Positions 19,444 to 24,917 of a DNA stretch of 38,545 nucleotides are shown here, one piece after another; the stretch's first letter is position 1, and the number at the start of each line of letters is the position of its first letter. The position numbers and the translations under genes are program-made. The DNA is from an uncultured bacterium. Lineage in GTDB: Bacteria > Verrucomicrobiota > Kiritimatiellia > CAIKKV01 > CAIJXV01. The stretch spans positions 175,379 through 213,923 of the forward strand of contig CAIJXV010000116.1 of NCBI GenBank assembly GCA_903824675.1, in the 5' to 3' direction. The notes under the pieces were generated by a model. It did no database searches, was not told the DNA's origin, and worked only from the letters and a program-made list of their open reading frames with translations.

Positions 19444-20323
19444 ATATCCGGGCCACCCGGCTCCACAGCCCAGGTCCCATTGCCTTGCGAATCCGGCGGT
19501 CCAGACTCCGCGCGTGCTCTTCGTTTCGGGCCAAGGCAAACAACGACGCCCCACTGCCTGACAACAAAGCTCCCTCCGCGCCTTCTGCCATCAACCGGTC
19601 CCGCAAAATCGCCAATAACGGAAATTTCGCGAACACCGTCGGCTCCAGCGAGTTGAAAAGATTCGCCGCCGCCAGGTTAACGTCGCCGTTCATCAAAGCA
19701 AAACGTAGATTATTAAAGATTTCCGGGGAACAAGTCAAGGCTGGTTTATAACGAAAATAAACATCGCGGGTCATAACCGAAAATCCGGGATTGACGACAA
19801 CCACCCACCAATCGGCCCGCAAAGACTCATTGGGCTCGACCAAGGGGTGAATCCGGTCCCCTACCCCCTCCATTACCGCTGCCCGGCCGTGAATCAAAAT
19901 CGGGATATCGCACCCCAACCGCCCCCCCAAGGCCATCAGAGTTTCCGTCGCCAATCCCGTGTTCCATAGCTTATTCAAAACTCGCAGGGTCGCGGCCGCA
20001 TCCACACTCCCCCCCCCCATCCCCCCGCCGATGGGTATCCGTTTATCGATATGGATGTGTACCCCCCCGGTATATCCCGTATGTTCCTTTAATAAAAGCG
20101 CCGCCCGGGTCGCCAAATTTTCCCGGGAGCCGACCACATTGCTGCCGGCCGGCAGACCCTCCAGTGCCACCGTACAGTCCACCTCGCCATCGGTCAGCAC
20201 AAATGACAGCCGATCCCCAAAGGACAACGGGACCACGATGCTCCGCAAATCGTGAAAGCCGTCCGGACGCTTGCCGACGATCTCCAGATAGAGATTCACT
20301 TTCGCCGGCGCATCCACCGTCAT
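19394..20323 (-). CDS. ispE: 4-diphosphocytidyl-2-C-methyl-D-erythritol kinase
   Basis: 309 aa from ATG 20321-20323 (an in-frame ATG at 20342-20344 is also possible). A GHMP kinase of the MEP isoprenoid pathway. Seen: PAKVNLYLEIVGKRPDGFHD at the start, the ATP loop PIGGGMGGGSVDAAATL, and LLSGSGASLFAL near the C-terminus. AGGG lies about 9 nt before the chosen ATG, and the candidate promoter ends close to the farther ATG, favouring the shorter protein. The last 16 codons and the stop lie inside the tRNA-Gln gene, so the tail (LPDGVMVAHGPLEARV) is tRNA sequence read as protein. Confidence 0.92.
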   Translation of the reverse strand: MTVDAPAKVNLYLEIVGKRPDGFHDLRSIVVPLSFGDRLSFVLTDGEVDCTVALEGLPAGSNVVGSRENLATRAALLLKEHTGYTGGVHIHIDKRIPIGGGMGGGSVDAAATLRVLNKLWNTGLATETLMALGGRLGCDIPILIHGRAAVMEGVGDRIHPLVEPNESLRADWWVVVVNPGFSVMTRDVYFRYKPALTCSPEIFNNLRFALMNGDVNLAAANLFNSLEPTVFAKFPLLAILRDRLMAEGAEGALLSGSGASLFALARNEEHARSLDRRIRKAMGPGLWSRVARILPDGVMVAHGPLEARV

Positions 20324-20453: not shown

Positions 20454-21590
20454 ATGACCCCACGACAAAGGCTCCTCACAGTATTACAAGGTCGCATTCC
20501 CGACTGCGTGCCCGTCGCCCCCGACTTTTCCAACATGATCCCCGCCCGCCTCACCGGCAAACCCTTTTGGGATCTTTACCTCTATAACGATCCGCCCATC
20601 TGGGAGGCCTACATCCAATGTGCCCGTCATTTCAACATCGATTCCCTGATGGATGGATATTTCCCCCTGCAATTCCCCGAGGATATCGACACCCAGTCCC
20701 CGCCTCTCGAACGCTTTATCATCGCGCGGGATGACTCCCAGATTATCGTGCAGGAATCATTCATGGAAAATGGACGACGCCGGTGGCTGCCCCGGGTCAA
20801 TGTCTATTATGCCAGCAACCCCCCTAGTTTTTGGGTCGATCCCGCCAAAATCAACCTTCCCGCTGAACCTCGCTGGTTCGAACCTTTGACGGGCGTCAAA
20901 CCGGTCGATATCTCCCCCAATGGCTTATCCCGAATCAAGACCCTGATGGGCGATCAAGGCCTCGTGGGCGTCTGGCTCACCTGGACCTGCACCCGCGGCG
21001 GGCAGGATGGCATTTACGAATATTACGACCATCCCGAACGTCATGACACCTGGGCCGCGGAACATGTTGAAAAAACCGAAAGGAAATTCGCACAGATCAT
21101 GTCCATGCCCGTCAAGCCGGACTTTCTTTGCTGTGGCGCATCGGGCACCATGATTTGGCAAACCGTGGAGATGTTCCGCAAAATCTCGCTGCCCGGCGTC
21201 AAACGCGGCATCGAACTGGCCACGGCCGCCGGCATCCCCACCCATGTCCATTCCTGTGGCCCCGAAAAGAATCTGGTCAAAATCCTGGCAGAGGAAACCG
21301 ATCTCACCGTCATCGATCCCCTCGAAATTCCGCCGATGGGGGATTGCAACCTGGCCGAATTAAAACAAGCCTATGGTAAAAAAATTACGCTCAAAGGCAA
21401 TCTGCATACCACCGAGGTGATGCTGCGGGGAACGGTCGAGACGGTTGTGGCCGCATCCCGTCAGGCCATCGACGATGCCGGCGCCGGCGGACGCTTCATT
21501 CTCTCAACCGGAGATCAGTGCGGCAGGGACACCCCCGACGCCAACCTCCAGGCCATGATCGACACCGCCCGCACTTACGGGCGCTATTGA
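20454..21590 (+). CDS. URO-D-family methyltransferase-like protein (MtaA/CmuA-type)
   Basis: 378 aa from ATG 20454, the usual family start (MTPRQRLLTVLQGRIPD); a TTG 12 codons upstream is in frame. The C-terminal half has HVHSCG (His266, Cys268) and STGDQCG (Cys356), matching the HxC...C zinc site of cobalamin-dependent methyltransferases. HemE lacks these residues. It is therefore probably a corrinoid methyltransferase that moves a methyl group from an unknown donor or corrinoid protein. No corrinoid-binding (B12-binding) partner is in the window. The gene ends TYGRY-stop, inside a direct repeat also found 1.36 kb downstream. Confidence 0.82.
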   Translation: MTPRQRLLTVLQGRIPDCVPVAPDFSNMIPARLTGKPFWDLYLYNDPPIWEAYIQCARHFNIDSLMDGYFPLQFPEDIDTQSPPLERFIIARDDSQIIVQESFMENGRRRWLPRVNVYYASNPPSFWVDPAKINLPAEPRWFEPLTGVKPVDISPNGLSRIKTLMGDQGLVGVWLTWTCTRGGQDGIYEYYDHPERHDTWAAEHVEKTERKFAQIMSMPVKPDFLCCGASGTMIWQTVEMFRKISLPGVKRGIELATAAGIPTHVHSCGPEKNLVKILAEETDLTVIDPLEIPPMGDCNLAELKQAYGKKITLKGNLHTTEVMLRGTVETVVAASRQAIDDAGAGGRFILSTGDQCGRDTPDANLQAMIDTARTYGRY

Positions 21591-21620
21591 CCGGTTGCGG
21601 GTTGAACTTCAAAAATATAA
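21565..21620. repeat. 56-bp direct repeat, copy 1
   Basis: It matches 22922-22977 at 47 of 56 positions with no gaps. On plus it holds the end of the URO-D gene (codons for ARTYGRY and stop). On minus it encodes YIFEVQPATGQ and a stop, like the C-terminus of the large membrane protein at copy 2 (FIFQDQSVTGQ). Confidence 0.75.
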
Positions 21621-21724
21621 TTTTGTTTAGTCATTTGAGACCCCGGCTTTAGGATGAGTGACCCGCTTCTGCCACAAACAACCGATCTCCGCCGTTCAAC
21701 CGTCGTTCCGGGGACACGCCAGTA

Positions 21725-21747
21725 AAGCCAGACCTACGGGCTGGCTT
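21725..21747. repeat. small REP-like hairpin
   Basis: AAGCCAG and CTGGCTT form a perfect 7-bp stem with a 9-nt loop in non-coding DNA. The form resembles REP units, but only one copy was noticed. Confidence 0.35.
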
Positions 21748-21861
21748 CAGCCGTGCGATACGCCCGGCGGTACTGGGCGCCGCCGCGGGTCCGCACAAAT
21801 ATTCTGGAACCGCCGTTCGATATTGCAAGGTGCGAAGGGGGAAAATTCGCCCACTCCGCGC

Positions 21862-21892
21862 TTGACTTCACCCACGCGCCTCAACCTAGTGT
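21862..21892 (+). promoter_or_regulatory. possible promoter of the methyltransferase
   Basis: TTGACT (21862-21867) and TAGTGT (21887-21892) are 19 bp apart, about 90 bp upstream of the ATG at 21980. The -35 box is good, the -10 box and the spacing are poor. Confidence 0.3.
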
Positions 21893-21979
21893 CGCCACCG
21901 TCACGGATGATCAGAACACCCGCGGCCGTCGCCCATGTCCGGCGAAATAAACATCCAACCCTTTAGATAAGGTCCTCAT

Positions 21980-22749
21980 GTCGCATCGCATTAGAAGCGC
22001 CCTGGCCCGGATACTCGCCCCCCCCCCCCCCCGCCATACCCAATGATGCCGCTTCCTCCGTGGAAAACGAGCATTTTGTCCCCGCCTTCGGGCTCGACGC
22101 GCGGACCTATATCGCGGCAGGCGACACGGCCGGCGCACACCACCTGATCCGCTACCAGTGGGCGTGCGACGTGCTGACCCGCGACCGACCGCAAGGCGCG
22201 GTGCTTGATATCGCATGCGGGGCCGGCTACGGCAATTTTCTGCTGGCCCAGGCGCTTCCCGAATGCCCTGTCATCGGCGCGGACTACGACGATAGCGCCA
22301 TCCGCCATGCGCGCGAACACGACCATCTCCCAAACCTGAAATTCCAGCACGGCGACGTTTTGCGCTGGATCGAAACCCTGACCGACCGCGCCTTCGCAGC
22401 CATCGTCAGTTTCGACACGCTGGAGCATTGCCCCCATCGGGAAATCATGCTGGAAAACCTAGCGCGGCATTTGACCGATGACGGCCGGCTGCTTTTCTCC
22501 ACCCCGAGCGCCTGGGATGAAAATCGCCTGCACCCGGAATGGACCCATCACAAGATCGAATATGCCGCGGCCAGTTTATACGATTTTCTAGCCCGGTATT
22601 TCCGTGAAATCCGCCGGCCCGAGGAGTCCGATTTTCCCGGACATATGGTTTTCGATGTCTTCGAAGGAGCACCCGTGCCCTATTGCCTGCGCCTGAACCC
22701 CGTCTGGTGCCGGTCGCCGATCCGGGTCGACAATCCCTATCGAGCCTGA
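21980..22749 (+). CDS. class I SAM-dependent methyltransferase with a poly-C frame break near its N-terminus
   Basis: The intact frame runs from GTG 22060 (229 aa), but that codon has no ribosome site. ATG 21980 has AAGG 6 nt upstream and reads MSHRIRSALARILAP into a run of 13 C. From there it is one base out of the methyltransferase frame; 14 or 11 C would join them and add about 27 residues. The catalytic domain has motif I VLDIACGAGYGNF, GADYDDSAI and VSFDTLEHCPHREIMLENL, the pattern of Methyltransf_11/25 enzymes. The substrate is unknown. A large membrane protein lies downstream, so a glycan target is possible. The gene may be phase-variable, broken, or carry a sequencing error. Confidence 0.72.
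22020..22032 (+). repeat. homopolymeric tract, 13 C
   Basis: Thirteen C residues in a row lie about 40 nt inside the frame that starts at ATG 21980. Tracts this long slip readily during replication, and the present length puts the two parts of the methyltransferase out of frame. Confidence 0.9.
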
Positions 22750-22921: not shown

Positions 22922-22977
22922 CCGCCCGAACCTATGGGCGCTATTGACCGGTTACGGATTGATCCTGAAAAATAAAA
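22922..22977. repeat. 56-bp direct repeat, copy 2
   Basis: It is 84% identical to copy 1 at 21565-21620. On plus it reads AARTYGRY and stop (22945-22947), a remnant of the end of a URO-D gene whose body is missing. On minus it is the true C-terminus of the 22941-24917 membrane protein. Confidence 0.75.
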
Positions 22978-24917
22978 TGCGAGCCGCCCCCCCACACCAG
23001 CTTCAATCCCGGCAGGTTCATAAAGGGCTGCGGATCCCCGGTTACGAGGATATGCGTTATCCCCAGTCTTGAAAACAAAGGGGTCCCCGGCTGTAATCGG
23101 ACGACGATCAGATCGTTTTGCACTAAATCGATACTGAACTGTCCCGGTTCTGATGGCAACTCAAACCGGACATGGGCATACCGGTTCCAGACCTCTTCAA
23201 ATGACCGCTGCGGATCGAGGCGGGTCCACAAGCCGGGCTGCGGATAGGGATGCACGCCGTCAACAGACCGGATCCCGAGCATTCGGAATAAGTTGGATAG
23301 ATAAATATCATATCGCTTGCTGCCATAAGCCACCCATTGCGGTTGAATTCCCTTCTCAACAGCCTCGTGCTGGATCAAGGAAATAGCCTGGCTGAGGGGG
23401 TTTTCGGCAATAAATGCCGTTCCGCCGCGAACCAGTGGGTTAAAGGTTAGAGTCGAACATACGCTGGCCATGGCAAATGTGAGGATAAACCAACGAGGGA
23501 GAAATACGAAAAGACATCCCAGAAGAAAAGTGAAACATCCCGCGCCTATCATTTTCCCGAGGCTGTAAGAGGGCAACATCTGTCTCAGGGCGTATCCTTC
23601 AACAATCAAGACGATGGCCAATCCACCCATGGCCCACGCTAATAGGGGATCGCGAATCAACCGCCGGAACGGGGACGCGAGATGTTGTCGCAAAACAGAA
23701 CATAGCAAAAGAACATCGCAGAGACCGATGGCAAGCAAGGTGCGCCGTTCGGGGACCCGATTCAACCCGGTGCCTTGCGCAACACTGGCCGGCAAGCCCA
23801 CCAGATACCAAGTTAATAAAAGCAGTAAACAGGCCATCAGGGCGAGTTGAATGCCATTTGGACGTTGATGGTCGCGGCGCCAGAAAAAGAATATCAGCAG
23901 GCACGTCAAAGGGAAAAATAAACAGAACGAAGAAGCCCCGCTGATGTTTCCCAAGGCGTGCCACTTGAAAGGATGCGCCCACGTCAGAAAGGATCCGCGC
24001 AGTAAATCGGCCCAAGTTCCTTCCCCGCCGGATACAAATCGTTTCCCCGGATACGAGGAACCTGCGGCAATCCGGATCGATTCCCAATTCTGAAAAACGA
24101 AAAAGATCGCGAGAAGAGACACCGTCAAACAGGCAAGAGCCAGGATCAGGGGCGCCTGGAATCGAGACCCGGCTGGAGTTCGCCGATCGGTCACCCGTAG
24201 TCCCACAAAGCAAAAAAGGATTACATAGAACAGAGTAATGAGATAAGGAAGGAAACTAAAGCTGAGGATAAATGCGGTCAACGCCCAGATTAAACCCAAC
24301 CCCTTCCAGACCCCGTGGCGGTGTCCTTGGCCGCGAAACAGCGCGTCGGCAAAAAGGAGTGATATCGCTGCAAACATGACCGACGGTGAGCAATTCAAAC
24401 TCCAATATTGAAAAAAGGGCGAATAGACCAGTACCGTGGCGCCCCCCAATGCTATCCCGTTATTGTTTTGAGTGACTAATCGAATCAGTAAAAACAAAGA
24501 CAACCACGCGCCGCCCAATAAAACCCACCAGTTCCACGCGAGGCCAAAATCAGATCCCCACAGATATCCCCACACTTGCGGCCTGAACAGGATCGTCCAG
24601 TCCCGAATGGGCATGGCGTAGTTGAGGCGCATGTTACAATGCCCATCCCCCACCAACGTGTTATAAACCGGAAAGGGTGGCGTATGTGCCCGTTGGGACA
24701 GGACCTGGGGTATCACGGCCACAAAATCGTCAGATCGAATTCCCTGAGCCTGACCCAGAATCACTTCGGTCTGGGGGGATTCATCGATAGGGTCGTGCCA
24801 TATGGGAACGGAAAAACCATGGAGCTTCAATAACGACAGGATTGCGATCAACACAAAAACATACCCGCAGATTGAGGGGGTTCGCAACCGCTGCAATAAA
24901 GAAAAAAAAGAACTCAT
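22941..24917 (-). CDS. large multispanning membrane protein, function unknown (GT-C/YfhO-like layout)
   Basis: 658 aa from ATG 24915-24917 (ATG 24932 is in frame but directly abuts the only AAGG). A first membrane helix (ICGYVFVLIAILSLLKL) precedes an external loop with GIRSDDFVAVIPQVLSQ and MPIRDWTILFRPQVWGYLW. About ten further hydrophobic segments lie between residues 125 and 480. A soluble C-terminal domain of about 150 residues ends in GDPQPFMNLPGLKLVWGGG. This layout, with an acidic loop after the first helix, resembles GT-C-type glycosyltransferases and YfhO-like proteins, but I see no proven catalytic motif. The neighbouring methyltransferase hints at surface-glycan work (inference). 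Confidence 0.65.
   Translation of the reverse strand: MSSFFSLLQRLRTPSICGYVFVLIAILSLLKLHGFSVPIWHDPIDESPQTEVILGQAQGIRSDDFVAVIPQVLSQRAHTPPFPVYNTLVGDGHCNMRLNYAMPIRDWTILFRPQVWGYLWGSDFGLAWNWWVLLGGAWLSLFLLIRLVTQNNNGIALGGATVLVYSPFFQYWSLNCSPSVMFAAISLLFADALFRGQGHRHGVWKGLGLIWALTAFILSFSFLPYLITLFYVILFCFVGLRVTDRRTPAGSRFQAPLILALACLTVSLLAIFFVFQNWESIRIAAGSSYPGKRFVSGGEGTWADLLRGSFLTWAHPFKWHALGNISGASSFCLFFPLTCLLIFFFWRRDHQRPNGIQLALMACLLLLLTWYLVGLPASVAQGTGLNRVPERRTLLAIGLCDVLLLCSVLRQHLASPFRRLIRDPLLAWAMGGLAIVLIVEGYALRQMLPSYSLGKMIGAGCFTFLLGCLFVFLPRWFILTFAMASVCSTLTFNPLVRGGTAFIAENPLSQAISLIQHEAVEKGIQPQWVAYGSKRYDIYLSNLFRMLGIRSVDGVHPYPQPGLWTRLDPQRSFEEVWNRYAHVRFELPSEPGQFSIDLVQNDLIVVRLQPGTPLFSRLGITHILVTGDPQPFMNLPGLKLVWGGGSHFIFQDQSVTGQ

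Follow-up and report, generated by a model that had tools for sequence, protein, structure and literature searches.

The window analyzed here (i.e., the whole 38,545-nt stretch of DNA, from an uncultured bacterium) contains a methyltransferase gene that is preceded by a pure run of 15 C residues and, upstream of that run, by an ATG with a Shine-Dalgarno (SD)-like site (Table 1). The length of the tract was established by reading the sequence, by script, and by a whole-genome pattern search, in which three overlapping 13-C matches amounted to a single run of 15; an earlier note on this DNA had counted 13 C. The tract begins 38 nt after ATG 21978 and ends 27 nt before GTG 22060, the start of the 229-residue methyltransferase ORF. 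Position 21980, which the note had given for the ATG, is the G of this codon.

As assembled, the ATG (21978 to 21980) opens a leader ORF of 22 residues (MSHRIRSALARILAPPPPRHTQ), which ends at a TGA (22044 to 22046) lying 13 nt upstream of GTG 22060. The two starts are 82 nt apart, not 80 nt as claimed before, and their frames differ by one, so that they are joined when the tract has 14 C (minus one) or 17 C (plus two). In translations at 13 to 17 C, the frame ran through with 14 or 17 C and was broken with 13, 15, and 16 C; with 16 C, ATG 21978 yields 56 residues and passes GTG 22060 out of frame. In the fused form, 27 residues (including, e.g., ILAPPPPAIPNDAASSVENEHFVPAFGLDAR) are placed upstream of the GTG position. 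The earlier proposal that one more C would make the frame continuous had the wrong sign. Its other observations on the two starts were borne out, namely, the ribosome site at the ATG (TAAGG, 5 nt spacing), the lack of an SD at GTG 22060, and the long pure C tract separating an ATG from a methyltransferase frame with which it is out of register, as seen in the sequence and in the script translations. Simple-sequence-repeat (slipped-strand) phase-variable genes are recognized by long pure repeats located either in the promoter or in the 5' coding region, the threshold in Campylobacter being G/C runs of seven or more. A long pure repeat lies in the 5' coding region here provided that ATG 21978 is the start used; otherwise, the tract is 5' untranslated.

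TABLE 1 Features at the methyltransferase locus and genes with apparent frame breaks at C/G runs elsewhere in the genome (G000)
Feature	Position	Strand	Remarks
Shine-Dalgarno-like TAAGG	21968..21972	+	5 nt spacing to ATG 21978; read from sequence
Leader ORF as assembled (15 C)	21978..22046	+	Translations at 13 to 17 C; coordinates checked
15-C tract	22018..22032	+	Between SD-preceded ATG 21978 and GTG 22060
Class I SAM-dependent methyltransferase ORF, 229 aa	22060..22749	+	GTG start without SD; TGA 22747-22749
AddA-like helicase-nuclease	L204		UvrD_C, then PDDEXK_1
Poly_export/SLBB protein (Wza-like)	L205
S41 peptidase	L208:1211-1220 (G000 C52:13810-13819)		Run of 10; single Pfam domain split over two frames (profile 2-48 / 41-165)
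Wzy_C-like (O-antigen-ligase-like) membrane protein	L217		Match below curated cutoff
Beta-helix protein	L221
Signal-peptidase-like	L028:1501-1511 (G000 C2:17511-17521)		11-C/G run; break between membrane region and Peptidase_S26 domain
No clear domain	L224 and L238
Laminin-G-type protein	L242
Apparently broken tracts, G000 positions	C2:17511, C24:1048, C25:20130, C52:13810, C74:37739, C88:61350, C104:11375, C47:12396, C55:81757

The 229-aa ORF carries a class I SAM-methyltransferase domain. Its Pfam matches (Methyltransf_31/25/23/12/11) were well above the cutoffs, with scores of 62.6 bits for Methyltransf_31, 56.3 for Methyltransf_25, and 51.8 for Methyltransf_23 (cutoff, 27 in each case), and codon usage strongly favored this frame (+61.8 bits). 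A search of the genome_contigs collection found no relative of the methyltransferase. In 58 related genomes, all from outside the genus and family, the best other match was 33% identical, and the closest relative in a sample of the phylum was 43% identical across residues 25 to 187. Two matches in viral contigs were rejected, as they covered 30 residues only and the frame there did not look methyltransferase-like.

Several distant relatives of the methyltransferase are located beside O-antigen/capsule genes, and plasmid-borne ones adjoin rfbF/rfbG and genes for an oligosaccharide flippase, an FkbM methyltransferase, and a glycosyltransferase. These neighborhoods make a glycan substrate likely for the family; by analogy, the most likely substrate of the enzyme studied here is a surface glycan or a precursor of one. 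In the window, the methyltransferase gene is flanked by a gene of the URO-D family and by a convergent gene for a DUF7657/DUF7654 membrane protein, with no glycan cluster. Among 80 loci compared for synteny around the URO-D gene, none contained the methyltransferase, ispE, DUF7657, prsA, or L25 genes.

A query with 21560-22060 gave 79 matches in the genome, mostly to 21709-21778, which is part of an interspersed repeat; this repeat is REP-like, with GC-rich inverted repeats (judged by eye), and some of its copies form tandem arrays (e.g., C123:14778-15235, C105, and C51). In addition, a 57-nt direct repeat (84% identical) occurs at 21565-21621 and 22922-22978. It comprises the last part of the URO-D-family gene together with 31 nt and recurs after the methyltransferase, where the convergent DUF7657 gene overlaps it with its final part. 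One possible origin is that insertion of the methyltransferase segment separated two convergent genes and duplicated their junction.

The 15-C tract is the longest C/G run of the 4.24-Mb genome, in which no other C run reaches 13. Pattern searches of the whole genome with 9-, 10-, 12-, and 13-mers counted 73 C/G runs of 9, 27 of 10, 5 of 11, 1 of 12, and 1 of 15. Markov models built from the window predicted 0.07 to 0.8 starts of 15 C per genome, and the genome's own run-length decay (a ratio of ~0.2 to 0.3 per base, estimated from the counts) extrapolates to roughly 0.006 to 0.03 such runs. The tract is an outlier and not an impossibility, and one such run per genome is no proof of function.

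We surveyed the loci of runs ≥10 long and of many 9-base runs, scoring codon usage on both flanks. Approximately nine other genes appear to shift frame at C/G runs of 9 to 11, each within an apparent single protein (Table 1). The break is firm for the S41 peptidase; the others are putative and were proposed from codon usage, the order of domains, and the absence of a convincing second start. In the signal-peptidase-like protein, AMEP stands in place of the usual SMEP-type motif, and this protein may therefore lack the catalytic serine. The apparent breaks at L235 and L039 proved to be ordinary gene boundaries. The frame was kept at 15 runs of 9 and 11 runs of 10, as well as at one run of 11 and one of 12 (the last two judged by eye); a run of 10 C (20009-20018; 10 G in the gene) in the glycine motif of the ispE GHMP kinase also leaves the frame intact. 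Breaks were more common in longer runs, i.e., 7/20 at lengths of 10 to 12 versus 2/30 at 7 to 9 (Fisher p 0.02, to be read as a guide only, with a codon model drawn from this window, some classes assigned by eye post hoc, and a script threshold chosen once). This pattern is what slippage-prone DNA would give, and homopolymer-length errors in the assembly would account for it equally well.

We tentatively regard the locus as a candidate contingency locus of the known poly-C type, in which a slippage-prone tract lies in the 5' end of a methyltransferase gene, and assign this reading a probability of about 0.42. Replication would add or remove C in the tract. With 14 or 17 C, ribosomes starting at ATG 21978 would read straight through into the enzyme. 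With 15 C, they would stop after the leader peptide, and reinitiation at the nearby GTG might yield a smaller amount of the 229-aa enzyme. With 13 or 16 C, they would pass the GTG out of frame and stop near 22145, leaving the enzyme off or minimal. The predicted switch is graded (fused, reinitiated, or off) rather than a plain on/off one.

The earlier suggestion of a phase-switched methyltransferase holds in part. It is favored by the position of the genome's longest run inside the best-looking start, with an SD there and none at the GTG, by a frame that is broken at the tract and joined at 14 or 17 C, by the glycan-linked relatives, and by the approximately nine further apparent breaks, two of which affect typical contingency functions (polysaccharide-export-like and O-antigen-ligase-like). 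Against it stand the lead-in, which is not conserved, with most relatives starting at or near the GTG; the neighborhood, in which glycan genes are missing; and the breaks in AddA-like and signal-peptidase-like genes. The last are odd for contingency loci and lean toward length error or undirected slippage. With a lead-in that is dispensable for the enzyme core, a clean on/off switch is less certain than the earlier note had it; what the tract governs may instead be how readily GTG 22060 is reached.

Two serious rivals remain beside this plausible reading. The stronger, which we consider doubtful and yet well within reach, is that the tract length was misassembled or missequenced: the true tract would be fixed at 14 C (or another in-frame length), the gene would be read from ATG 21978, and the break would be an artefact like others in the assembly. 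Here, such an error would have added one C to the tract, not dropped one as the earlier note had it. The breakage of unrelated genes at C/G runs and the rise of the break rate with run length are what this explanation expects. A homopolymer that is 15 C long is expected to slip in vivo regardless, which counts against a pure length error, as does the retention of frame by runs of 7 to 8 and most runs of 9 to 10, the ispE run included. A length error would also leave unexplained why the longest run of the genome lies exactly between the SD-preceded ATG and the gene. Regarding precedents for such errors, 10x Illumina contigs carried homopolymer errors in ~1% of their genes (PMC3277595), and spurious indels are known in Illumina data to rise in runs above 14 bp (PMC8808543).

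A survey of the class found runs of 12 or more C in 232/346 genomes. Of 59 tract loci analyzed from this survey, 29 were located ≤200 nt from a contig end, which leaves biological tracts and artefacts indistinguishable in this survey. In class relatives (e.g., G034:C108, G063:C284, L059, and L072), many contigs terminate in very long C/G runs, the longest of 54; these may reflect artefacts of assembly or sequencing, or variable tracts left unresolved.

The second rival, which we judge to be rather unlikely, is a passive tract: the enzyme would start at GTG 22060 (or be reinitiated at every tract length), the ATG would be a chance start, and the poly-C would have no role in a 5' untranslated region. 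In N-terminal alignments, the relatives share an E[HR]F[IV]PG-like motif (e.g., MADEHFIPG in L109 versus VENEHFVPA in our protein), and most of their starts, as picked by script, lie 0 to 10 residues upstream of our GTG position. The enzyme core would accordingly be complete in the GTG-initiated form. Some genes in the window lack an SD, as GTG 22060 does, and the upper Markov estimate permits nearly one such run per genome by chance. However, most genes in the window have an SD, and an SD-like site with an ATG open into the tract, as at ATG 21978, has a chance frequency of about 5%. The 13 codons from this ATG to the tract scored -1.0 bits in codon usage, a value that falls inside the 5 to 95% ranges of both true frames (-2.5 to 8.5) and wrong frames (-11.3 to 1.7). 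From this evidence we infer that ATG 21978 is in use with a probability slightly better than even.

Finally, poly-C acts in some promoters (e.g., that of opc in Neisseria meningitidis) and the tract ends close to the GTG, but a switch in which its length alters promoter spacing or strength is very improbable, given that a sigma-70-type scan found no such site spanning or flanking the tract and its sole upstream promoter-like site (21587-21616) lies ~400 nt away. A search for a structured RNA or riboswitch found nothing in Rfam at E values up to 1.

Extending the contingency reading to the whole genome, the lineage would use long C/G runs as contingency switches, with ~10 genes (for glycan export, O-antigen ligation, glycan methylation, proteases, and DNA repair) alternating frames by slippage and the leader acting as a three-state control; we consider this broader proposal unlikely. 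If reads show mixed tract lengths, poly-C contingency loci, so far mainly host associated, would extend to an uncultured bacterium with ~10 candidate loci. If they do not, the lesson is that false frame breaks resembling phase variation can arise in such assemblies at C/G runs of ~10 or more.

A literature search linking Kiritimatiell* with phase variation returned nothing, and comparisons were drawn with systems from other bacteria. Translationally coupled ORF pairs occur among predicted frame transitions (PMC3711429). As in those pairs, the upstream ORF at our locus ends near a downstream start without its own SD; in contrast, it has only 22 codons, and its end is set by the length of a homopolymer. 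We know of no conserved cluster of pairs like our leader and methyltransferase. In the Chlamydia pmpG genes, frames break at poly-G and poly-C (PMC6740158). There, as here, the frame is lost no more than 5 nt from a long C/G run and surface proteins are affected, whereas the tract positions in Chlamydia are conserved across paralogues and strains and ours are in single genes of one genome. In Helicobacter canadensis, all 29 homopolymer tracts vary in length in read data (PMC2823697). That variation was seen in reads, unlike at our locus, which is known from an assembly; the two cases are alike in that genome sequence places homopolymers in genes of many functions, either close to the 5' end or toward the end of the gene.

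The closest parallels are the phase-variable C/G-tract methyltransferases of Campylobacter. One of these is cj1426 of Campylobacter jejuni, a capsule heptose methyltransferase (PMC8437040), and the Campylobacter phasome includes several SAM methyltransferases, with tracts that are mostly 9 to 10 long and rarely 13 to 15 (PMC6321876). Tract variation and phenotype have been demonstrated for those genes, whereas ours is a candidate seen in assembled sequence, and our tract precedes the family-conserved start and lies outside a glycan cluster. Our locus resembles the poly-G/C genes of C. jejuni in that a C/G homopolymer stands near the beginning of the reading frame of a SAM methyltransferase, where a change in tract length would shift that frame.
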